Shown here one piece after another: positions 54,938-64,000 of a stretch of 64,000 bases of DNA. The translations under genes were made by a program, and so were the position numbers. Source of the stretch: Streptomonospora salina (lineage in GTDB: Bacteria; Actinomycetota; Actinomycetes; Streptosporangiales; Streptosporangiaceae); the NCBI RefSeq assembly GCF_014204715.1, contig NZ_JACHLY010000001.1:2511001-2575000 (forward strand), written 5' to 3'. The number at the start of each line of letters is the position of its first letter. The stretch's first letter is position 1. The notes below the pieces were generated by a model, which was given only the letters and a program-made list of their open reading frames with translations, did no database searches and had not been told where the DNA came from.

Positions 54938-55010
54938 GCGCTCGTAGCTCAATGGATAGAGCATCTGACTACGGATCAGAAGGTTGGGGGTTCGAATCCT
55001 CCCGAGCGCG
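54938..55010 (+). tRNA. tRNA-Arg (ACG anticodon)
   Basis: Acceptor GCGCTCG/CGAGCGC, D arm GCTC..GAGC, anticodon stem TCTGA-TCAGA with loop CTACGGA (anticodon ACG at 54971-54973), T arm GGGGGTTCGAATCCTCC. 73 nt, discriminator G. Its 3' half is the attachment site of the island that follows. Confidence 0.95.
54977..55009 (+). repeat. attL: tRNA-Arg 3' end
   Basis: The 33 bp from CAGAAGG to CGAGCGC recur at 62056-62088 with a single C-to-T difference. Here they complete the functional tRNA. Confidence 0.9.
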
Positions 55011-55030
55011 CAGAGCTGAGACAGCTAAGA

Positions 55031-55070
55031 GAAGGCCCGACCTGCACAGACAGGCCGGGCCTTCTTCTTT
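55031..55070 (+). terminator. Terminator after tRNA-Arg
   Basis: GAAGGCCCG / CGGGCCTTC with an inner CCTG/CAGG stem, followed by TTCTTT. Confidence 0.85.
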
Positions 55071-55106
55071 GTGCGGGGACGTGCGGGAGGCTCCTGAGGG
55101 GCCGCG

Positions 55107-55126
55107 TCGCACATTCATCGCACATG
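55107..55126 (+). repeat. 20-bp island-end repeat, left copy
   Basis: TCGCACATTCATCGCACATG, found again exactly at 61931-61950. It lies 97 bp inside attL; the right copy ends 105 bp inside attR. The placing fits integrase arm-type binding sites. The unit is itself an internal double of TCGCACAT. Confidence 0.7.
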
Positions 55127-55129
55127 CTT

Positions 55130-55264
55130 CTACTCGGCGGTGCGAGCCGAGTCCCCCTCGTCGGCCGCAGCCGTCGCCTTGACCCGAGCGGCGTCCATCG
55201 CTTCGGCCACCTCGTCTAGGCGGTCCGGGAACAGGTGCCCGTACCGGTCGAGGGTCATGGTCGC
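55130..55264 (-). pseudogene. Tyrosine integrase C-terminal remnant
   Basis: The last ~44 codons read ATMTLDRYGHLFPDRLDEVAEAMDAARV, the well-known end of actinobacterial tyrosine recombinases (with the active-site Tyr in LDRYGHLF), then a hydrophilic tail and stop. Upstream of ~55264 the homology ends and the methyltransferase 3' end begins at 55284. So the whole catalytic domain except the Tyr segment is gone. Confidence 0.8.
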
Positions 55265-55283
55265 AGGGCGGCTCCGCACAGGT

Positions 55284-56411
55284 TCAAGCGACGCCATCAC
55301 CGCCGAGCGCGACCCGCCCCCTGTGCGTCCACGACGGACCGTGCGGGGTCCCCAGCCACACCCGGTGCGCCCCTGCTGCATCGACGCTGAGCCCGTAGTC
55401 GGTGACGCCCGGCCGGTCGTCACCGACCCATCGCCGGTGGGCCTCGATCAACTCGTCCCACAACCGTCGCGGCCCGCCCTGCTCAACGCGCCCATCACCG
55501 TGCAGCCGCGCCCACGACGGTCCGGTCGTCGCCGACAACCATACGTACTGGTCACCACCGGGCTCATAGACCCGGATCCCTCCCCGCCACCCGGGTACCG
55601 TCAACGCGAGCGCGGGACCGGTGTCCTCGTCGAGCACTACCTCGCGAGGGTCACCCTTGAAACGCGTTGCCACGTCAGGGGCGCCGTCGAGGTCGTGGGG
55701 TGCCCCACCCTGCCAGCGGTGAGCGCGCAGCATCATGAACGACGTGTGCCCGACGAACCTCCCTGCCGCCACGCCATCCTCGACCGTAAGCCGGGTAAGA
55801 AATCCACCGGGAAGCTCGGCAGACGGTTTCCACGGCGCCACGATCACCGCGCCCTCGGCCGCTTGGGCGATCCACGGGGATGGGATGCGCGTCACCGAGC
55901 ACGTCGCTATGACCCGGTCGTAGGGGGCGCCTGGTGCGTATCCGTGCTGGCCGTCGCCGGTGACCACCGCCGCAAGGGCGTCCACAGTGTTCAGATTGGC
56001 ACGGGCCCGGTCGGCTACCACGGGATCGACCTCGCTGGTGGTGACCGATCCGGACCCACCGACCAACTCGGTCAGTACCGCGGCGTTATAGCCGGTTCCC
56101 GTTCCAATCTCCAGCACCCGGTCTCCGGGACGCGCGTCCAACGCTTCCAACATCTCCGCCATGACCGCCGGCGAGGACGACGACGAGGACGGCCGCCCTA
56201 TACCGCCGCTCCGACCATCGTCGACCTGAGTGACGATGGATTCGTCGGAGTACACGAGGTCGGCCCACTCCTGGGGGTTATCGGTTCGGTCCAAGGGCGG
56301 GCCGAGCGCAACGGGCCAGATGCGGTCGGGGATGAAGCGTGCTCGATCGACCGCGGCGAATGCGCGCCGGATGGCAGTCACTGCTTGCCGGTTCCCTTGC
56401 ATCGGGGGCAC
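55284..56411 (-). CDS. Protein-L-isoaspartate O-methyltransferase-like protein
   Basis: About 375 residues. SAM motif I is DRVLEIGTGTGYNAAVLTEL, preceded by the PCMT-type lead GIGRPSSSSSSPAVMAEMLEAL; the post-motif region is YDRVIATCSVTRIPSPWIAQA. The C-terminal 170 residues are an extra domain, rich in Trp and Gly (WAGFS-free, RVYEPGGDQYVWLSA, GPSWARLHGDGR), as in the actinomycete PCMT-like proteins linked to modified peptides or FxLD-type systems. I chose GTG 56411 behind AAAGGAGG; GTG 56381 would overlap the upstream stop. It ends 19 bp from the integrase stub. No precursor peptide was found. Confidence 0.8.
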   Translation of the reverse strand: MPPMQGNRQAVTAIRRAFAAVDRARFIPDRIWPVALGPPLDRTDNPQEWADLVYSDESIVTQVDDGRSGGIGRPSSSSSSPAVMAEMLEALDARPGDRVLEIGTGTGYNAAVLTELVGGSGSVTTSEVDPVVADRARANLNTVDALAAVVTGDGQHGYAPGAPYDRVIATCSVTRIPSPWIAQAAEGAVIVAPWKPSAELPGGFLTRLTVEDGVAAGRFVGHTSFMMLRAHRWQGGAPHDLDGAPDVATRFKGDPREVVLDEDTGPALALTVPGWRGGIRVYEPGGDQYVWLSATTGPSWARLHGDGRVEQGGPRRLWDELIEAHRRWVGDDRPGVTDYGLSVDAAGAHRVWLGTPHGPSWTHRGRVALGGDGVA

Positions 56412-56506
56412 GTCACCGCCTCCTTTGACTTCCATCGTTCACCTTGACGTCCATCGGTCTCTACGAAGACGACTCCGGTACCGCCGCAGGTGCTGCACTG
56501 TGCCAT
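56378..56506 (-). CDS. Tiny double CxxC zinc-ribbon-like protein (42 aa)
   Basis: Below usual gene-calling size but convincing: CSTCGGTGVVF near the start and CPRCKGTGKQ at the end, the CxxCxGxG pairs of DnaJ-type zinc fingers, 27 residues apart. ATG at 56506; the stop overlaps the first possible methyltransferase GTG by 4 bp and its coding sequence carries that gene's ribosome binding site. Coupled translation with the methyltransferase is therefore likely. Function unknown. Confidence 0.65.
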   Translation of the reverse strand: MAQCSTCGGTGVVFVETDGRQGERWKSKEAVTCPRCKGTGKQ

Positions 56507-56659
56507 CACTGCTGCCCTTTCAGTGTTGACGGTAATTCGTGGGCCGAGCTCATCCGCATCAGGCCGGAGTTCGCAGAAGCAGGCGTGCGGCCCAATCCGG
56601 GGAGGGGATACCGGACCGCACGCCCCAACGCGTGGTCGGTGGGAAGGCCGTTATCAGGG

Positions 56660-56959
56660 CTACCGGCCGCGCGGGCTCGGCCTACGCACGGGGCGGGAAA
56701 TCCTGCCAGTAGACGCCGTCGCCGACTTCGACGAGTTGGTCGGCGATCCAGGGCGCGGAGATCGGCCGCCGGCTCGTGCGGGCGGGTCTTCCATCTGCTG
56801 GACGAGTCGTTTGACGTCGGGTTCGATCAGCGTCGGTGCGTGGTCGGCGTCGCGGTCGAGGGCCGTCGCGATCCACAGGTGTTCGGTGCGGCGGATGGAC
56901 CACCGTTCGCCGTAGCGCGAACGCAGCAGCGCGAGCAAGGCGTCGTTCGGGGCGTTCAT
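56660..56959 (-). CDS. Small hypothetical protein of the second RPYV cassette (possible frameshift)
   Basis: A 99-residue protein whose first ~62 residues look genuine (RYGERWSIRRTEHLWIATALD, then EPDVKRLVQQMEDPPARAG). It then turns into a Pro/Arg/Ser-rich stretch. In another frame the same DNA reads PISAPWIADQLVEVGDGVYW, then QDFPP and a stop at ~56682, which is more protein-like. So the 3' part may be frameshifted near 56765-56775. ATG overlaps the RPYV gene's stop (ATGA). Confidence 0.5.
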   Translation of the reverse strand: MNAPNDALLALLRSRYGERWSIRRTEHLWIATALDRDADHAPTLIEPDVKRLVQQMEDPPARAGGRSPRPGSPTNSSKSATASTGRISRPVRRPSPRGR

Positions 56960-57144
56960 GCGAGCGCCCCCGTACCGGCCAGGGCGACGGCGGCCGCGCG
57001 GCGGCGTTCCTCGCGGCGGACCCGTTCGGCCGATTCGCGTTCGCGCATGCGCCGCTCGTGAGCGAGCACGTAGGGCCGGACGTAGGAGGGCCGAGCGTAC
57101 CGAGGGCGGCTGTCGGACGGAGAAAGCGGCGTTAGCCTTGTCAT
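56956..57144 (-). CDS. Small RPYV-motif protein, second copy
   Basis: A 62-residue protein with PSYVRPYVLAHERRMRERESA followed by a basic helix (RVRREERRRAAAVAL). It shares the VRPYVLxxE signature with the 82-residue protein at 6727-6975 and likewise heads a coupled small-gene pair. ATG at 57144 has AGGTGG upstream. Function unknown. Confidence 0.55.
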   Translation of the reverse strand: MTRLTPLSPSDSRPRYARPSYVRPYVLAHERRMRERESAERVRREERRRAAAVALAGTGALA

Positions 57145-57220
57145 CGTTCCACCTGTCTTAGTCAGGTTGGGACCACGCCCCCGGAGTGTTCGCCGCACTC
57201 GCGGGGGTCACTTGTAGGAG

Positions 57221-57382
57221 CTACGCGGCGGCAGCCATGCCGATACCGGCGCAGGGGACGATGCGCACCACGGCCGAGGTGCCGGACGCGGGACCGACCA
57301 CGACGAGCCGACGGGGACGCACGGTCGTACGCCCTCGTCCGCGGCAGGAACGGCACTGGTAAACACGTCGCGTGTCACTCAT
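57221..57382 (-). CDS. Tiny Cys-motif protein (53 aa)
   Basis: Starts ATG 57382 and reads SDTRRVYQCRSCRGRGRTTV, then a short beta-type stretch and IVPCAGIG before the stop. The CRSC-GRG pair and a late Cys resemble half of a zinc ribbon. The ribosome binding site is poor. It would be the first gene of the minus-strand part of the island, head-to-head with the aminotransferase gene. Existence is plausible, not certain. Confidence 0.42.
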   Translation of the reverse strand: MSDTRRVYQCRSCRGRGRTTVRPRRLVVVGPASGTSAVVRIVPCAGIGMAAAA

Positions 57383-57499
57383 GGATCAAGCATCCAGGGG
57401 AGTCGGGGACCTTTCCCATGTCCCGACGCTGCCTCAGTGCTGAACTTTCACTGCACTTAGACCCTGTGCTCGCGGCAAAGCCGCTGCCAAACTGTGGCT

Positions 57500-58279
57500 A
57501 TGGCACAACTCAACGGGGCGCCGGCCACTCTCAGCGAGCTACAGACACTCGCGCTGGTCAACTACGGGCACTTCACGTCCATGCGCGTGGACGACCAGCA
57601 CGTTCGGGGACTTTCACACCATCTGGACCGACTCGTCAAGGACTGCCGGAAGGTGTTCGGTGCCGAACTTGACCGCGAGCGTGTGCAGCGCTTCGTTCGG
57701 GAGGCTGTAGCGGACGAGGGCGGCCCGTTCGTCGTTCGGGTCACCATCTTCGACCCCGCGTTGGAAATGGGGCACCCCGGGAGCGACGCTGAACCGCACG
57801 TGCTCGTGACCACTAGACCGGCCGCAGCACTCCCGCCATCACCGATGCGCGCCCAGAGCGCCGTCTACACCCGCGATATGCCGTTGGTGAAGCACATCGG
57901 ATTGTTCGGTCAGCTCCGCCACCGCCGCACCGCGCAGCGCAGTGGATTCGATGACGCGGTGTTCACCGACTCATCCGGATTCGTCTCCGAAGGCGCGACC
58001 TGGAACATAGCTTTCTTCGACGGCGAAAACGTCGTGTGGCCCGATGCGGAAGTTCTTCCCGGCGTCACGATGCGGCTACTCCAGCAGGTACACGAGCAGA
58101 CGATCACCGCGCCCGTGAACCTGACGAACCTCGACGGCATACAAGCGGCATTCGCCACCAACACGAGCGTCGGCGTCCGCCCGGTGACCGCTATCGACGG
58201 GACCGAGTTCCCGAGCGATCACCCTGTATTCACCGAATTGCGCAAGGAATACGAGGAGATCCCCCCGGAACGACTCTGA
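57500..58279 (+). CDS. Class IV aminotransferase-fold protein (aminodeoxychorismate lyase-like)
   Basis: A 259-residue protein of PLP fold type IV. YGHFTSMRVDDQHVRGLSHHLDRL at the N-terminus (residues 22-45), catalytic Lys131 in PLVKHIGLFGQLRHRR, Glu in GFVSEGATWNIAF, and the phosphate-binding FATNTSVGVRPV near the end. BCAT, D-amino-acid transaminase and ADC lyase share this fold; the reaction here is unknown. ATG 57500 was chosen by family; no Shine-Dalgarno is visible, so it could be leaderless. First gene of the island's plus-strand unit, 26 bp before the XRE-FGE gene. Confidence 0.85.
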   Translation: MAQLNGAPATLSELQTLALVNYGHFTSMRVDDQHVRGLSHHLDRLVKDCRKVFGAELDRERVQRFVREAVADEGGPFVVRVTIFDPALEMGHPGSDAEPHVLVTTRPAAALPPSPMRAQSAVYTRDMPLVKHIGLFGQLRHRRTAQRSGFDDAVFTDSSGFVSEGATWNIAFFDGENVVWPDAEVLPGVTMRLLQQVHEQTITAPVNLTNLDGIQAAFATNTSVGVRPVTAIDGTEFPSDHPVFTELRKEYEEIPPERL

Positions 58280-58305
58280 CCGATCCCTTACCCCCTGGAG
58301 GATCG

Positions 58306-59289
58306 ATGGCCACCCCGACCATCAAGATATGGTCCGGCCGTGAGGTCCGCGCACTTCGCGAGGCAAAGAGGATGAGCATTCGCGCATTTGCGGGCCACCT
58401 CGGCGTGAGCGAACGCATGGTGTCGAAGTGGGAGAAACACGGCGAGGAGATTCACCCTCGTCCGGTGAATCAGCAAGCCTTGGACACCTCGCTAGCGGCA
58501 TCCGGTGCAGACGTTGCAGCTCGATTCGAAAACTTGATAGGCCCGCTCGACGCCAAGCCCCAGACCGACGCGGAGCCCAAGGAACCGGCCCGCGCGGACT
58601 CCGCTCCCCTGCCGGTGAACGAGCCCCATCAAGTGCGGCACCCGGTAGACGGAAAGCTCATGGCCTTGGTGGAGGCCGGTGTCTACCTCGCAGGTGATAA
58701 CAACGAGCCGGTGTTCCTACCTTCGTTCTATATCGACGTCTTCCCGACGACCAATGCCGATTACTCGCGATTCATCGCCGCAACGGATCATCCGACACCG
58801 CAGCACTGGGACGACGGAAAACCGCCGGCCGAATCGAACGACCATCCCGTCGTGTTCGTCACATGGAAGGACGCGGCGGCATACGCGAGCTGGTCGGCGA
58901 AGGCCTTACCCACGGCTCAGCAGTGGGAGAAGGCCGCACGCGGCGCCCGAGGCGACGTCTACCCATGGGGCAGCCAGCGCACCCCCGCCAAGTGCAACGT
59001 CAGGGAGAGCGGACTCCGCGCCACGACGCCCGTCAACCGCTACCACAGCGGCGTCAGCCCCTACGGCATCTACGACATGTGCGGCAACACCTGGGAATGG
59101 TGCTCCACGGAGTCCGAGCCGGACCGCTACGAACTCAAGGGAAGCGCTTTTACAAGTCCATTTTTCCGAGCCACGCCTTCAGCGTTTAATGATGCTACCG
59201 TAACCATGAAGGATGACGATACGGGCTTCAGATGCACGACACCGGAAGAGACGATGAAGGAACTTCTGCGGCGAACAAAAAGCTCGTAG
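58306..59289 (+). CDS. XRE HTH - FGE-sulfatase-domain fusion protein
   Basis: A 327-residue protein; GGAGG lies before the ATG. Residues ~5-70 are an XRE helix-turn-helix (REVRALREAKRMSIRAFAGHLG, SERMVSKWEKHG). After a linker, residues ~110-320 are a formylglycine-generating-enzyme/SUMF1 fold: VEAGVYLAGDNNEPVFLPSF, FPTTNADYSRFIAAT, VVFVTWKDAAAYASW, LPTAQQWEKAARGARGDVYPWG, YDMCGNTWEWCSTESE and DDDTGFRC. The fold's usual tail RGGSW..R.A is ELKGSAF..SPFFRA. It may act as a ligand-sensing regulator, and not as an oxidase. The ATPase follows 54 bp later. Confidence 0.85.
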   Translation: MATPTIKIWSGREVRALREAKRMSIRAFAGHLGVSERMVSKWEKHGEEIHPRPVNQQALDTSLAASGADVAARFENLIGPLDAKPQTDAEPKEPARADSAPLPVNEPHQVRHPVDGKLMALVEAGVYLAGDNNEPVFLPSFYIDVFPTTNADYSRFIAATDHPTPQHWDDGKPPAESNDHPVVFVTWKDAAAYASWSAKALPTAQQWEKAARGARGDVYPWGSQRTPAKCNVRESGLRATTPVNRYHSGVSPYGIYDMCGNTWEWCSTESEPDRYELKGSAFTSPFFRATPSAFNDATVTMKDDDTGFRCTTPEETMKELLRRTKSS

Positions 59290-59343
59290 TTCAAGACCCA
59301 ATTTACAGGTAAGCCGCAACTGACTTGCGCAGGACATGATCAG

Positions 59344-61083
59344 ATGATCAACAATATTCGATTTCGCAACTTCAGGGCATTTGAAACTTTCTCAGTAACC
59401 TTGAGAAAGAAAAACTGCCTAGTTGGAGTCAACAGCGCAGGGAAGAGTACCGTACTCACTTCCCTTCGGTTAGCCGACGCATGCCTAAGATCCGCTCGCA
59501 CTAGGACCGCGTCTCAATACCCGCGGGGAGACATCCAGGTCTACGGAAGCCCAATTCCCGTTCGAGATTTTGAAACCTTAAACGAAAGCGTCCGCCACAA
59601 TTTCTTGAATAATGATACAAACTTTGAAGTAAGGTGGTCTTCCGGTGCAATATTCCGGGCAGCGTGGCCTCCTCAGAAAGAAGATTCTCAAGCACGACAG
59701 GAACCTTTTTTCTGCCTATACGACTCAAACGGCACCAATGTGCGGTCGTTTAAGAAATTCGTCGACTCGCATGACACGATAGGGATAGTTCCGACACTTT
59801 CCCCGATTGAACACGAAGAGGGTATTCTAAGTGAAAAATACGTAAGGGCAAACCACTCTTCGAGACTTAGCAGTCGCCACTTCAGGAATCAACTTTATCA
59901 ACTTGTAAACAATGGAAAATGGGAGGGATTTGTAGAGTTCTGCACACCGTGGATCCCAGAGCTTGAGCTAAGAGAACCGGTGCTCAACTATTCGGGATCC
60001 GATGTCACCATTGATGTCTATTACCGTGAACAGGGCAGTAGGTTTGAGAAAGAATTAGTGTGGGCTGGGGATGGTATCCAAATATGGCTCCAGATCCTTT
60101 TGCATGTATACAGAAATTTCGAGTCTTCTACCCTGGTTTTCGATGAGCCCGAAGTGTTTCTCCATGCAGATCTTCAAAGACGACTTGTCAGGTTAATAGA
60201 TAACTTGAGCAGCCAAGTCCTGTTGGCAAGTCACTCAAGTGAGATCCTTGCTGAGACGGACACTCGCGCCATAATTTGGATTGACAAAAACCAAAAGAAG
60301 GGCATTCGTACACCCACAGACGACGTTCTCTCCGACTTGACGGCATCGCTAGGAACAGCCTACAACCTCAGCTTAGCACGAGCTCTACGCGCGCAAGCAG
60401 TCCTCTTTGTCGAAGGCAATGATTCGCGCATTCTACGAATTCTATCCCGGAAGATGCAACACGTAAACCTTGAACGAGAAACATCGTTGGCTGTAATTCC
60501 AATGGGCGGCTATTCAAATTGGCCTAACACTGAGCATTTCAAATGGCTTATCGATGATTTTCTTCAGCGTTCCATTAAAAGTATGATTCTATTGGATCGC
60601 GACTACAGAACAGATGACCAAGTATCCAGTACTTCGGAACAGCTAAATCAAATATTTGACAGTGTTCATATCTGGCACTGCAAAGAGATCGAGAATTACC
60701 TCATTATCCCTGAGGTCATCTCGAGAGTTTCAGGGGCAGACTTTGACGACATACGTGAATATATAGACTCAGAATCAGAAGGCATGAAATCCCGAGTTTT
60801 CGCTCGGATGTTGGAGCAAAAGACATTAAATGAGAAATCCGCATCGAACCACGCGGTGTCCATCTCAGAAGAATTTCATAGATCATTCCCACATGCCTGG
60901 AGTGATCCTACGTACCGTGTATCCGTTTGCCCTCCCAAGGATCTATTGTCAGGAATCAACAAACACCTTCAGAGCAACCGGAAAAAGACGGTATCCTTTG
61001 AAAAAATTGCTCACAATATTCGAGCGAAAGAAATTCCGCTTGAGATGCGAAACGTACTCCAGCAGATTGAAGATCTTTCTTAG
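59344..61083 (+). CDS. AAA (ABC-type) ATPase with TOPRIM/DUF4435-like C-terminus, OLD/PARIS-like
   Basis: A 579-residue protein that is strikingly AT-rich compared with its neighbours. Residues 1-310 are an SMC/ABC-type ATPase: NIRFRNFRAF, Walker A GVNSAGKST (28-36), Walker B STLVFDEPEVFLHADLQRRL (262-281) and switch LASHSSEIL (His297). Residues ~350-460 look TOPRIM-like: AVLFVEGNDSRIL (Glu357), MILLDRDYR (Asp418, Asp420), then WHCKEIENYLIIPEVI, a pattern of DUF4435. OLD-family nucleases and PARIS (AriA-AriB) combine such parts in anti-phage defence; here they are fused in one chain. Only a shadow of an operon with XRE-FGE can be inferred. Its stop lies at the start of an otherwise non-coding right end. 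Confidence 0.87.
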   Translation: MINNIRFRNFRAFETFSVTLRKKNCLVGVNSAGKSTVLTSLRLADACLRSARTRTASQYPRGDIQVYGSPIPVRDFETLNESVRHNFLNNDTNFEVRWSSGAIFRAAWPPQKEDSQARQEPFFCLYDSNGTNVRSFKKFVDSHDTIGIVPTLSPIEHEEGILSEKYVRANHSSRLSSRHFRNQLYQLVNNGKWEGFVEFCTPWIPELELREPVLNYSGSDVTIDVYYREQGSRFEKELVWAGDGIQIWLQILLHVYRNFESSTLVFDEPEVFLHADLQRRLVRLIDNLSSQVLLASHSSEILAETDTRAIIWIDKNQKKGIRTPTDDVLSDLTASLGTAYNLSLARALRAQAVLFVEGNDSRILRILSRKMQHVNLERETSLAVIPMGGYSNWPNTEHFKWLIDDFLQRSIKSMILLDRDYRTDDQVSSTSEQLNQIFDSVHIWHCKEIENYLIIPEVISRVSGADFDDIREYIDSESEGMKSRVFARMLEQKTLNEKSASNHAVSISEEFHRSFPHAWSDPTYRVSVCPPKDLLSGINKHLQSNRKKTVSFEKIAHNIRAKEIPLEMRNVLQQIEDLS

Positions 61084-61255
61084 TGTTCTTGGAATATCCA
61101 CTCCGACCACGCCATTTTCCGCGATCTGCCGAATTGAGCCGTATGAGATCAAGGCGACGGCGCTCCGCGCCGTCGCGCCCGGCTTGCCGTCCGCCGCTCG
61201 GGCTGCGGGCTGCCGCCCGGTCCCGAGCGGCGGACGGCCGCTGCATGGCGTGGGG
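61084..61255. other. Two consecutive hairpins after the ATPase gene
   Basis: Hairpin 1, 61153-61178: GGCGACGGCG / CGCCGTCGCGCC. Hairpin 2, 61186-61238: GCCGTCCGCCGCTCGGG and CCCGAGCGGCGGACGGC, perfect 17-bp stem. GC content returns abruptly to the chromosomal level here. They probably terminate the ATPase unit. Confidence 0.65.
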
Positions 61256-61459
61256 TTAGCGGCGTGGAGACCGACGGTCCCACTCCGCCAAAGCCTTCAC
61301 AACAGCGGGGATGTCGGGACGCTCGGCCCGTTTAAGGGCCACAAGGCTCACCACAAGTCGCACTGACAGGCGAAGCATTTGGAGTACCACCACAGCAACT
61401 AGAACATGCGTCAGGTGGTGCGATCCACTATCGACGGCGGCCCAGAGGAATCCAGACAT
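61256..61459 (-). CDS. Small membrane protein (67 aa)
   Basis: From ATG 61459 (AAAGG upstream) it reads a short amphipathic start, then one TM helix (HVLVAVVVLQMLRLSVRLVVSLV) and a polar tail RPDIPAVVKALAEWDRRSP. It looks like a genuine short membrane protein, but no family is recognised. Convergent with the ATPase gene, inside the island. Confidence 0.45.
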   Translation of the reverse strand: MSGFLWAAVDSGSHHLTHVLVAVVVLQMLRLSVRLVVSLVALKRAERPDIPAVVKALAEWDRRSPRR

Positions 61460-62055
61460 GACGGACTGCACCTTTCGCAAGGATGCAGTCCCGAGATCAA
61501 ATTTGGCGACGCTTGCGCCAGGCGCACCGGGATCTACATAGCAAGCCGTTGGGGCTCACCGAAGCTGTCGGATCTAAGAAGTAGCGTCTCGCGAGTGTAG
61601 CGCACCTTCCCCTCGCTGCCTCGCCCGCGCTTCCTGGGCATAGGCGCCGGAACCTCCAGGGGTCACTGGCGTTCTGGTCCCGAGGCACTCGATCGCGCGA
61701 CTCTGCCTGTCTCGGGTGCCGGCACCGGCGCGACCGAGCGCCTCAGACCGTGGCCGTGGTTGCTCGCGGCTGGGGTTGCTGGGGCGGCGGCACCGTCGGC
61801 GGTCAGCTCGACGCCGACTATGGTCGGCCTATCGGGTAACCGCCCATGTCGACGTTGCATACTGCCGAATGAGCACCGACCGTCGCGTACCGAAAGCGCT
61901 GGTGAGCCCCAGGCTGGCCGCCTGCCCGCATCGCACATTCATCGCACATGGCGTCAGGACGCGGCCGGAAGCGCCGGGAACCGGCGAGCACTCCCCGCCC
62001 ACGTCAGCACGCCTCCCGCCGCTCCCCCGCTGCTCACACACCTCAGCCGTTACAA
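61460..62055. other. Right end of the island, non-coding
   Basis: No supported gene. Contains the second 20-bp repeat (61931-61950) and runs up to attR. Confidence 0.5.
61931..61950 (+). repeat. 20-bp island-end repeat, right copy
   Basis: TCGCACATTCATCGCACATG, identical and in the same orientation as 55107-55126. Confidence 0.7.
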
Positions 62056-62088
62056 CAGAAGGTTGGGGGTTCGAATCCTCTCGAGCGC
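62056..62088 (+). repeat. attR: duplicate of the tRNA-Arg 3' end
   Basis: CAGAAGGTTGGGGGTTCGAA... through CGAGCGC matches 54977-55009 with one change (62081 T for C). Not preceded by the rest of a tRNA, so it is a scar of integration. Confidence 0.9.
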
Positions 62089-62360: not shown

Positions 62361-62596
62361 CTACGCAGCGCCAGTTCGACGAACCGTCGCGGCGCTTCCG
62401 CCTCCTGTCCGGGGGGAGTTGGCGATGACCCCGGCATTCTCCTTGAGGATCAGCAGCACATCATGGACAGTCACGTCATCTCGCAGGGCGCCGTCGGCTT
62501 GTGCGTGTGTCATCAACAGCGCGAGGGCGTCGAGGATCGGTTGGCGGACCGACGGCTCGGATGGGGCGGACAGGATCTGCGCGATGGATCCGGCTA
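62361..62596 (-). pseudogene. TetR-family regulator, C-terminal fragment
   Basis: About 78 codons from the IS edge: GSIAQILSAPSEPSVRQP, LALLMTHAQADGALRDDVTVHD and VLLILKENAGVIANSP, the C-terminal half of a TetR regulator. Its upstream part is interrupted at 62596 by the IS5-family element. Beyond the element the same frame continues only for ~25 codons of unrelated sequence, so the N-terminal DNA-binding domain was lost as well. Confidence 0.75.
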
Positions 62597-63630
62597 GGCC
62601 CTGTTTAAGAAGCCCTGGTTGATCGGGCTTGCCCGGCATGTCGGGACTGCGCACAAGCGAGGTCTCCGGTAAATGGAGCAACGACCAAGCAGCCCATCTA
62701 CACGGAGACCTCGGTGGCCAGGGTACCGATCGGAGGACGTAAAGACCTGACCGACAAGCAGTGGCGGGCCCTGAAACCGCTGCTGCCCCCGCGACCCGCA
62801 GGCGGGAGGCCGCCGACATGGACGCGGCGCCAACTGCTGGACGGCATCCGCTGGCGCACCCGCGCCGGTGTGCCCTGGCGCGACGTGCCCGAACGCTACG
62901 GCCATTGGCAGTCGGTCTACCATCTGCTGCGGAGCTGGCAGCGCGCCGGGATCTGGGCGCTGATCGCGGCCAAGCTGCGGGCCTGGACCGATGCCGCCGG
63001 GCTCATCGGCTGGACGGTCGCGGTCGACTCCACCACCTGCCGTGCCCACCCCCACGCCGCCGGGGCGCGCCGCCGTCCCGGCCGCCAGGCCGAGCCGCCC
63101 GGCGACGAACCCGGCGACCACGCGCTGGGGCGTTCGCGCGGCGGGTTCTCCACCAAGCTCCACCTGGCCGGAGAGCAGCACCGCAAACCGCTGTCGGTGG
63201 TATTGACGGCGGGCCAGCGCGGTGACAGCCCGCAGTTCGCGCGGGTTCTGGAGCGCATCCGTGTGGCCCGCTCCGGGCCGGGGCGCCCGCGTATTCGGCC
63301 CGAGCGGGTGTTGGCCGACAAGGCCTACTCCTCGCGGGCCAACCGGGCCTACCTGCGGCGGCGCAAGATCCCGGCGACCATCGCCGAGCCCCGCGACCAG
63401 CGGTGCCATCGCAAGGCGAAGGGGTCGGCGGGCGGCCGGCCGCCGAGGGTGGACCGACAGGCGTATAAGCAGCGCCACGTGGTGGAGTGCGGGATCGGGC
63501 GGCTCAAGCAGTTCCGTGCTGTGGCCACCCGCTTCGACAAGCTCGCCCTGCGCTACGAGGCCACGATCCAGGTCGCCGTGATCGACATCTGGCTGCGCGA
63601 CCTCGCAGCGACACCTTCTTAAACAGGGCC
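62597..63630 (+). mobile_element. IS5-family insertion sequence (IS427-like, 1034 bp)
   Basis: Terminal inverted repeats GGCCCTGTTTAAGAAG at both ends, flanked by the dinucleotide TA on each side (62595-62596 and 63631-63632), the expected short duplication. One transposase gene. It breaks the TetR fragment. Confidence 0.92.
62714..63622 (+). CDS. IS5-family transposase
   Basis: A 302-residue DDE transposase that fills the element. N-terminal LTDKQWRALKPLLPP and RQLLDGIRWRTRAGVPWRDVPERYG (DUF4096-type), catalytic Asp in WTVAVDSTTCRAH and ERVLADKAYSSR, Glu in HVVECGIGRLKQFR. Intact, so the element may be active. ATG start assigned from the ARVPIGGRKDLT beginning, with GTG/ATG choice open. Confidence 0.93.
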   Translation: MARVPIGGRKDLTDKQWRALKPLLPPRPAGGRPPTWTRRQLLDGIRWRTRAGVPWRDVPERYGHWQSVYHLLRSWQRAGIWALIAAKLRAWTDAAGLIGWTVAVDSTTCRAHPHAAGARRRPGRQAEPPGDEPGDHALGRSRGGFSTKLHLAGEQHRKPLSVVLTAGQRGDSPQFARVLERIRVARSGPGRPRIRPERVLADKAYSSRANRAYLRRRKIPATIAEPRDQRCHRKAKGSAGGRPPRVDRQAYKQRHVVECGIGRLKQFRAVATRFDKLALRYEATIQVAVIDIWLRDLAATPS

Positions 63631-63693
63631 TAGGCCGGGACTCGCCGCTCGAAGTCGGCCTCGATCCGCCTCCGAGCGAAAGAGAGGCAGGCG

Positions 63694-63957
63694 ATGAGCA
63701 CGATGGTCAGCGGATGGCTGTATATCGCCGCAGGAGTCACGTGGGCAGTAGCCGCGGCCCTGCACTACGTCGGTGGATCGCTTGCGCCCGGTGTGCTGAT
63801 GACCTTCGCGGCCCTGATGTTCCTCGCCGGAGGGGCGGTGTGGCTGGTGCGCTACTCCCGTGACCGGAGACAGCGGTCCGACCACGCCTCCCCTCCGCCG
63901 AGGGGCATGCGGAATGCGGATGAGCCCCGGACATACGGTCGATTCCGGTATCGGTGA
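63694..63957 (+). CDS. Small two-TM membrane protein (87 aa)
   Basis: ATG behind GAGAGGCAGG. Two hydrophobic helices: GWLYIAAGVTWAVAAALHYV (residues ~7-26) and LMTFAALMFLAGGAVWLV (~35-52), then a basic, polar tail ending in RFRYR. No family recognised. It stands alone next to the IS5-family element, just before the window end. Confidence 0.6.
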   Translation: MSTMVSGWLYIAAGVTWAVAAALHYVGGSLAPGVLMTFAALMFLAGGAVWLVRYSRDRRQRSDHASPPPRGMRNADEPRTYGRFRYR

Positions 63958-64000
63958 CGAATGCGGCCCGCGCTCGCACCGGGACCGGCGATTCTTCCAG

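Follow-up and report, generated by a model that had tools for sequence, protein, structure and literature searches.

The 64,000-nucleotide stretch of the Streptomonospora salina chromosome analysed here (contig NZ_JACHLY010000001.1, positions 2,511,001 to 2,575,000; hereafter the window, numbered from its first letter) contains, next to a tRNA-Arg gene, three plus-strand genes: PLP4 (57500..58279), encoding a pyridoxal 5'-phosphate (PLP) class IV aminotransferase-like enzyme, XRE-FGE (58306..59289), encoding an XRE helix-turn-helix (HTH, residues ~10-48) fused to a non-catalytic domain (~108-312) of the formylglycine-generating enzyme (FGE) fold, and a gene for a single-chain AAA_21-DUF4435/TOPRIM ATPase (59344..61083). 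The gaps between them, 26 bp for PLP4/XRE-FGE and 54 bp for XRE-FGE/ATPase, are those given in a first-pass annotation of this DNA, which took the three genes for one defence operon. The interval is best explained, with a probability that we put at roughly 0.7, as a decayed pSAM2-type actinomycete integrative and conjugative element (AICE) at tRNA-Arg that carries an autoregulated PLP4/XRE-FGE pair, with an independent ATPase as later cargo. Judged by sequence and gene order, the pair is a conserved two-gene accessory unit recurring across actinobacteria, and the ATPase is a later insertion between XRE-FGE and the conserved right end of the element.

Relatives of XRE-FGE were found in at least 554 stretches of the named genome collection, the best 80 of which were kept for the locus counts. 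PLP4 is present in 58 of these 80 loci and lies directly upstream of XRE-FGE in 57 of the 58, the exception being L068; the 22 loci that lack it comprise 13 FGE proteins from other phyla and nine actinobacterial loci. Within the family, 15 of 200 genomes gave XRE-FGE matches: the window's own, ten full-length and four partial relatives. The 20-kb stretches that were fetched hold ten full-length loci (L040-L049), in all of which PLP4 directly precedes XRE-FGE, one partial relative (L052), with no PLP4 in its 20-kb stretch, and two other ATPase genes (L050, L051); the partial relatives G060 (HTH only), G106, G137 and G142 are likewise without PLP4 in the DNA fetched. The genera that carry the pair include Streptomyces, Nocardia, Micromonospora and Thermomonospora, and its sites are chromosomes, AICEs with integrase, RepSA and FtsK-like genes (L040-L044) and two linear Streptomyces plasmids, whose records label the proteins merely aminotransferase class IV and SUMF1/EgtB/PvdO family. 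No description of the pair, its family name or its operator was found in the open-licence literature, and the pair is apparently a widely shared, undescribed unit. The phage collection yielded just two weak matches to XRE-FGE and one to the ATPase.

Two features of the surroundings of the pair may be recorded here. At six loci (L048, L061, L062, L064, L072, L088) it is close to and divergent from a gene of the S-adenosylmethionine-synthetase (AdoMet-synthetase) cluster, which is adjoined in most of the six by a gene of an APH-like kinase cluster; the AdoMet-synthetase-cluster gene is a possible regulatory target. On a linear Streptomyces plasmid (L138:11223-11597) a Fic-family toxin gene stands after PLP4-XRE-FGE on the same strand, with one small gene between.

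The ATPase has a different distribution. It is absent from all 80 of the best XRE-FGE loci and from the ten further full-length loci L040-L049, and at a threshold of E 1e-20 the matches are confined to three of the 200 family genomes, one of them the window's own, 3 of 345 of the order, and 1 of 396 drawn from the phylum, again the window's own. Neither of the other two ATPase loci of the order, L050 and L051, has PLP4 or XRE-FGE within ~9 kb; the neighbours scanned include an integrase fragment in L050 and two transposases with an integrase in L051. The trio was consequently rejected as a conserved unit, and the check proposed in the first-pass annotation, a search for the same three-gene order elsewhere, went against its operon: within these searches, homologues of the three genes never co-occurred outside the window. 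A defence operon in which XRE-FGE is the infection sensor and governs the nuclease, with PLP4 helping, is thus very improbable, even with the common strand and short gaps in its favour. It also draws on the position of the ATPase ahead of the hairpin with which the XRE-FGE unit ends in L040 and L042, and on the tail of XRE-FGE, which shares the AT-rich composition of the ATPase, so that both may have come together from an element in which they already adjoined.

How the ATPase arrived can be read from the right end of the element. The bases directly 3' of the XRE-FGE stop in L040, a GC-hairpin stretch, recur in the window at 61126..61240 (plus strand), behind the ATPase, with 87% identity; this displacement points to an insertion of ~1.9 kb at the end of XRE-FGE. 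By a strict pattern the stretch, which directly follows XRE-FGE in L040 and L042, is found after four of 64 XRE-FGE genes (L040, L042, L043, L044), and it is also present in L053, at 80%. It is conserved across elements at different tRNA sites and has no Rfam match; it may be a terminator, an origin or a transfer locus. The ATPase gene has a GC content of 0.456, the window as a whole 0.712. The low GC extends into the final 159 bases of XRE-FGE (59131..59289, plus strand), where GC3, the GC content of third codon positions, is 0.51 compared with 0.79 in the upstream part; these bases form a probable recombination junction. We infer a junction within XRE-FGE itself and a donor in which an XRE-FGE tail adjoined the ATPase; no donor with this arrangement was found. 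Co-transcription of the ATPase with the pair at this locus is plausible, since it lies on the same strand after a gap of 54 bp and precedes the hairpin, which in several related elements comes immediately after XRE-FGE.

The regulatory reading of the pair starts from a direct repeat with an 11-bp period upstream of PLP4, in the window the predicted operator CTGAACTTTCACTGCACTT at 57440..57458 (plus strand), between PLP4 and a divergent gene for a 53-aa protein. The upstream regions of the window and of 70 loci, 71 in all, with three same-genome pairs inside (L041/L057, L045/L059, L048/L061), were compared. The repeat reads CTGAACTTTCACTGAACTT or nearly so, may also be written CTGAACTTTCACTG(A/C)ACTT, and in most cases begins 59-81 bp ahead of the PLP4 start. 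At up to five mismatches it occurs in 50 of the 71 regions, against 0.35 expected from dinucleotide shuffles; at up to four there are 45 matches within the 200-bp regions, tandem arrays being counted repeatedly, and none elsewhere in 1.46 Mb. The window holds one site, which is also single in the 5.6-Mb genome at up to three mismatches. Among nine lone XRE-FGE loci the repeat is kept without PLP4 in four (L094, L097, L105, L107). Two of these, L094 and L107, have chromosomal neighbours in common. Where the repeat varies, both units usually change together: four near-identical Nocardia loci have CTGACGTT twice, once per unit, a Streptomyces clade has GAAGTT, and L112 has GCAATT. A reversed operator, considered for the Streptomyces clade, was dropped, as GAAGTT reads in the same orientation, and GntR proteins are disfavoured as binders, as the operator is common to loci with quite different divergent genes.

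XRE-FGE itself is very probably the binder of the repeat and an autoregulator, as the covariation of its recognition helix with the operator suggests. The scan comprised 199 variable XRE-FGE columns in 55 loci; same-genome or near-identical rows (L041, L044, L045, L048, L100, L102, L109, L117) were left out, as were L113 and L129 and the loci without a clear unit (L049, L074, L092, L093, L110, L111). Column 41 ranks first of the 199, with a corrected mutual information with the operator bases of 0.53 (z 16.0), followed by column 32 (z 10.5), and columns 33-46 exceed the other columns (p 0.0045); the best of 208 PLP4 columns, at 0.43 (z 8.7), is below column 41. In the structure model of XRE-FGE (mean pLDDT 84.3) residue 41 lies within HTH helix 36-48. 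Among the tree rows, near-identical ones included, the second repeat unit has C at position 6 in 40 of 41 rows with K41 and in 3 of 22 rows without it. Rows that combine R41 with N35 have GAC(G/T) and form two separate clades (the L098 group; L103, L108 and L120), and R41 without N35 (L060, L083, L087) goes with the common C. The predicted operator stands at the gene's own promoter and, at the level of sequence, tracks the recognition helix, as would be expected of an XRE autoregulator. The regulator role that the first-pass annotation saw in the HTH-FGE protein is supported; its assignment to the adjacent nuclease is not, the only site in the genome at up to three mismatches being the one in front of the pair itself.

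Several points weigh against this reading. The motif was derived by eye from the same loci on which it was then counted, so the repeat counts are descriptive and not an independent discovery. Even at five mismatches 21 of the 71 upstream regions are without the repeat. It is also absent from five of the nine lone XRE-FGE loci, in most of which the gene is partial. Some of the 64 rows in the tree come from one genome or are nearly identical, and the rule for K41 has exceptions: L046 has K41 with C absent, and in L060, L083 and L087 the C is kept with R41, which means that the operator is not set by R41 alone. Columns 15, 294, 32 and 233, outside the helix, score well too, as would follow from shared ancestry. 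An independent-pairs test on the tree has three well-supported pairs and cannot reach significance.

The two proteins of the pair are assigned with good scores. PLP4 matches Aminotran_4 of Pfam (5.6e-36, 124.9 bits) and the NF006734/PRK09266 family (343.5 bits, cut-off 202), and its residues K131, E164, T220 and N221 are kept in 68 of 68 rows; K131 aligns with the catalytic-Lys region of solved branched-chain aminotransferases, where we take the aligned Lys to be the catalytic one. The fold-IV profile and the active-site residues K131 and E164 place PLP4 among the class IV PLP aminotransferases and lyases, and it is probably an active enzyme. XRE-FGE matches HTH_31 (1.8e-6) and FGE-sulfatase (1.5e-34) of Pfam; the best PDB sequence match of its FGE part is SUMF2, and the fold matches are ToxD, FGE and SUMF2. 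The catalytic pair of FGE is a C-x4-C near the C-terminus, and SUMF2 is a non-catalytic paralogue. This Cys pair is found in none of 74 XRE-FGE rows, three of which hold two Cys with another spacing, so the protein would fall outside the formylglycine-generating enzymes, an enzymatic FGE role is disfavoured, and the domain is read as a sensor. In its best PDB match and its lack of the Cys pair XRE-FGE resembles SUMF2 and other non-catalytic FGE-fold proteins, from which it differs in being fused behind an XRE HTH and in having a cognate predicted operator. The reading of XRE-FGE as a genuine enzyme of the formylglycine or EgtB type, with a small peptide of the cargo as its substrate, can invoke the Pfam score and fold matches, as well as a relative of a methyltransferase of ribosomally synthesized and post-translationally modified peptides that lies nearby in the window and in 7 of the 80 loci. 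The missing Cys pair and the likeness to SUMF2 make it highly doubtful, and no small gene that the loci share was observed, with ORFs below 45 aa not called.

The explanation that we prefer may be put as follows. The element would have lost the integrase body, RepSA, the FtsK-type transfer gene and the GntR gene between its repeats and kept PLP4 and XRE-FGE. XRE-FGE would bind the 11-bp-period repeats in the divergent promoter and autoregulate PLP4-xre-fge, perhaps controlling the divergent element genes too. Its catalytically dead FGE-fold domain would bind a small ligand, which PLP4 would produce, use up or present, and the pair would act as an enzyme-plus-receptor switch; the ATPase-TOPRIM would be independent PARIS/OLD-like abortive-defence cargo, maybe read now from the PLP4 promoter. 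A wider and more tentative proposal, which we regard as a possibility of low probability, is that of a mobile, actinobacteria-wide signalling cassette, in which PLP4 makes a diffusible amino-acid-derived signal, the dead FGE domain is its receptor, and the HTH reads the repeats and switches the cassette itself as well as the divergently oriented genes of the AICE or plasmid, so that one operon would sense the carriage or transfer of mobile elements.

An unlikely but conceivable alternative makes PLP4 a PLP-loaded co-sensor that binds XRE-FGE, instead of a ligand-making enzyme, the two together forming a split MocR-like regulator. In MocR regulators an HTH and an aminotransferase fold are parts of one chain, and the position of PLP4 directly upstream in 57 of 58 loci, like the full conservation of its PLP-site residues, is in keeping with this idea; against it, the four lone XRE-FGE genes keep their operator without PLP4, and the active-site conservation suits catalysis equally. 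The likeness to MocR/GntR-aminotransferase regulators lies in HTH control tied to a PLP protein, whereas here the HTH is of the XRE type, the sensor has the FGE fold, and the PLP protein is of class IV and encoded by a separate gene.

The pair could also be pictured as an addiction unit of a toxin-antitoxin-like kind by which mobile elements are retained: XRE-FGE would be the autorepressor, and PLP4 would poison metabolism or relieve such poisoning. The operator at the pair's own promoter, the occurrence on AICEs and plasmids and a weak likeness of the HTH to those of MqsA- and HipB-type antitoxins, far under the cut-off, would fit. Against it, PLP4 has no toxin-family match in Pfam, NCBIfam or PADLOC, and among 67 loci (three same-genome rows removed; two of the 67 are linear plasmids) an integrase gene is within reach in 22, a tRNA gene in 19, a transfer gene in six and a RepSA-type gene in five, and 36 have none of these within reach. 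We consider an addiction unit quite unlikely.

To return to the preferred explanation, its cargo gene encodes an ATPase-TOPRIM protein that is, by its motifs and profile scores, a PARIS/OLD-like candidate, in agreement with the first-pass annotation. The protein matches AAA_21 of Pfam (4.4e-23, 83.3 bits) and, both under the Pfam cut-offs, DUF4435 (6.7e-5, 23.2 bits, cut-off 27) and the OLD-like TOPRIM domain (0.017). Among 127 listed PADLOC families it scores with AriA (76.3 bits), AriAB (75.4) and Old (72.4), and GajA is its best PDB sequence match (2.6e-10). The motifs GxNxAGKST and DEPxVFLH, which we take to be the P-loop and Walker B, and E357 with D418-x-D420, presumably the TOPRIM acidic residues, are invariant in three aligned homologues and place the protein in the OLD/ATPase-TOPRIM superfamily; a structure model from this three-sequence alignment reaches a mean pLDDT of 52.5. 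With PARIS AriAB fusions it shares the order of AAA_21 and DUF4435 in one chain and the AriA/AriAB scores, but its DUF4435 match stays under the cut-off and the Old profile scores nearly equally. With the OLD family and GajA it shares an ABC-type ATPase followed by a TOPRIM; unlike there, no helicase-sized ORF stands beside it in the ORF list, hence no GajB-like partner was seen. PARIS detection in PMC9122126 includes single-protein fusions of AAA_21 and DUF4435. A fused PARIS protein would be expected to join AAA_15 or AAA_21 with DUF4435 above the published scores, and to cleave tRNA and arrest growth once it senses an anti-restriction protein.

The assignment of the interval to a decayed AICE rests on its repeats, its cargo and backbone genes shared with known elements. 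The tRNA-Arg(ACG) gene at 54938..55011 (plus strand; ARAGORN, and Rfam RF00005 with 70.4 bits, the one credible match of three in the RNA family scan) is the integration target. Its 3' end is repeated as an att-like direct repeat of 33 nt, with the tRNA copy at 54977..55009 and the distal copy at 62056..62088. The tRNA-Arg island of the first-pass annotation thus stands, as does its repeat on both sides, except that 32 of the 33 bases are identical, with one mismatch. A second repeat pair of 25 bp lies at 55102 and 61926 (96% identity). The integrase stub noted earlier, a possible C-terminal tyrosine integrase remnant at about 55130..55297 (minus strand), is a partial case: it weakly matches two PHROG integrase families (E 0.068 and 0.15), has no Pfam match, and presumably resembles the C-terminus of a tyrosine integrase.

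Between positions 56630 and 59180 the window matches the AICE of L040 with ~75% DNA identity; the match ends near the end of XRE-FGE, and the right end matches too. By Pfam the L040 element has an integrase, an HTH_17 excisionase-like protein, RepSA, an FtsK-like protein (22.4 bits, cut-off 24) and a GntR protein, and L041-L044 have homologues of the integrase, RepSA, transfer and GntR genes in the same order. A species of the same genus (G128) has such an element (L053) at the same tRNA-Arg, with integrase, RepSA-type and transfer genes, no excisionase called, and the genes for the 99-aa, RPYV and 53-aa proteins described below. In that element (L053:7851-9777) the position of PLP4-XRE-FGE is occupied by a HAD hydrolase and a 426-aa protein for which Pfam gave no match; the two may form a corresponding pair of regulator and enzyme. 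The window's own element is no longer a functional AICE, since no integrase, excisionase, RepSA or transfer gene is intact between the repeats. When the L040 and L053 proteins for these four functions were compared by tblastn with the DNA from window coordinate 50000 to 81000, only a frameshifted C-terminal piece of an FtsK-like AICE transfer gene was found (63920..64000, continuing outside the window to 64146, minus strand); its two frames are 74-82% and 57% identical to the corresponding proteins of the two elements. PMC9513070 describes decayed AICEs that have part of an integrase, cargo and direct repeats, and PMC3218068 tandem AICEs at tRNA-Arg as well as pcmt cargo. The tRNA site, the direct repeats, the possible partial integrase, the cargo and the backbone in common with L040 and L053 ally the island with such decayed and pSAM2-type AICEs; it departs from them in having no intact mobility gene seen and in carrying a foreign ATPase and a methyltransferase.

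The history of integration was not simple, and this too tells against the explanation. Next to the tRNA of the window stands a terminator that matches L053 and L054 in their distal flanks. The variable zone at tRNA-Arg exceeds the extent first reported: the transfer debris lies beyond the distal repeat, and synteny with a genome of the same genus (G080) resumes only near window coordinate 68.47 kb, outside the window. For these three reasons a second element or a rearrangement at the island is likely, and the debris at 63920-64146 would come from this or a second element.

The remaining genes between the repeats lie on the minus strand, opposed to the three plus-strand genes, an arrangement in which Pfam matches and the ORF list bear out the earlier description of co-directional PLP class IV, XRE-FGE and ATPase-TOPRIM genes facing PCMT-like and tiny Cys/RPYV genes. 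The PCMT-like methyltransferase (55284..56435) is nearest to TIGR04188, the ATP-grasp peptide maturase methyltransferase (279 bits, under the cut-off of 380); it is not a fixed part of the unit, since relatives are found in just 7 of the 80 XRE-FGE loci and L040-L044 gave no match. The four tiny ORFs encode a 43-aa CxxC protein (56378..56509; DnaJ_CXXCXGXG-like, under the cut-off), a 99-aa protein (orf99, 56660..56959) of the AICE backbone, 62-78% identical to ORFs in L040, L042 and L053, a 62-aa RPYV protein (56956..57144), also of the backbone, with 60-77% identity across 30-61 residues in the same three elements, and the 53-aa CxxC protein divergent from PLP4 (57221..57382), with 48-62% identity in L040-L044 and L053. 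Between the gene for the latter and the operator, at 57400-57425, lies an imperfect palindrome, GTCGGGGAC...GTCCCGAC, where a CCCATGTC stretch is common to close relatives. Just past the distal repeat stands a transposase-like element (62594-63636), presumably IS5-like, of which the genome copies shown include four others at 100% and one at 85%.

The one unusual part of the island is thus its PLP4/XRE-FGE unit, beside which a lone phage-defence-like gene was later added, and the view that XRE-FGE serves the adjacent nuclease is corrected. The operator, together with the natural variants of the recognition helix, makes the function of the regulator testable, and, if the proposed mechanism is true, the FGE fold would become a sensor for transcription.

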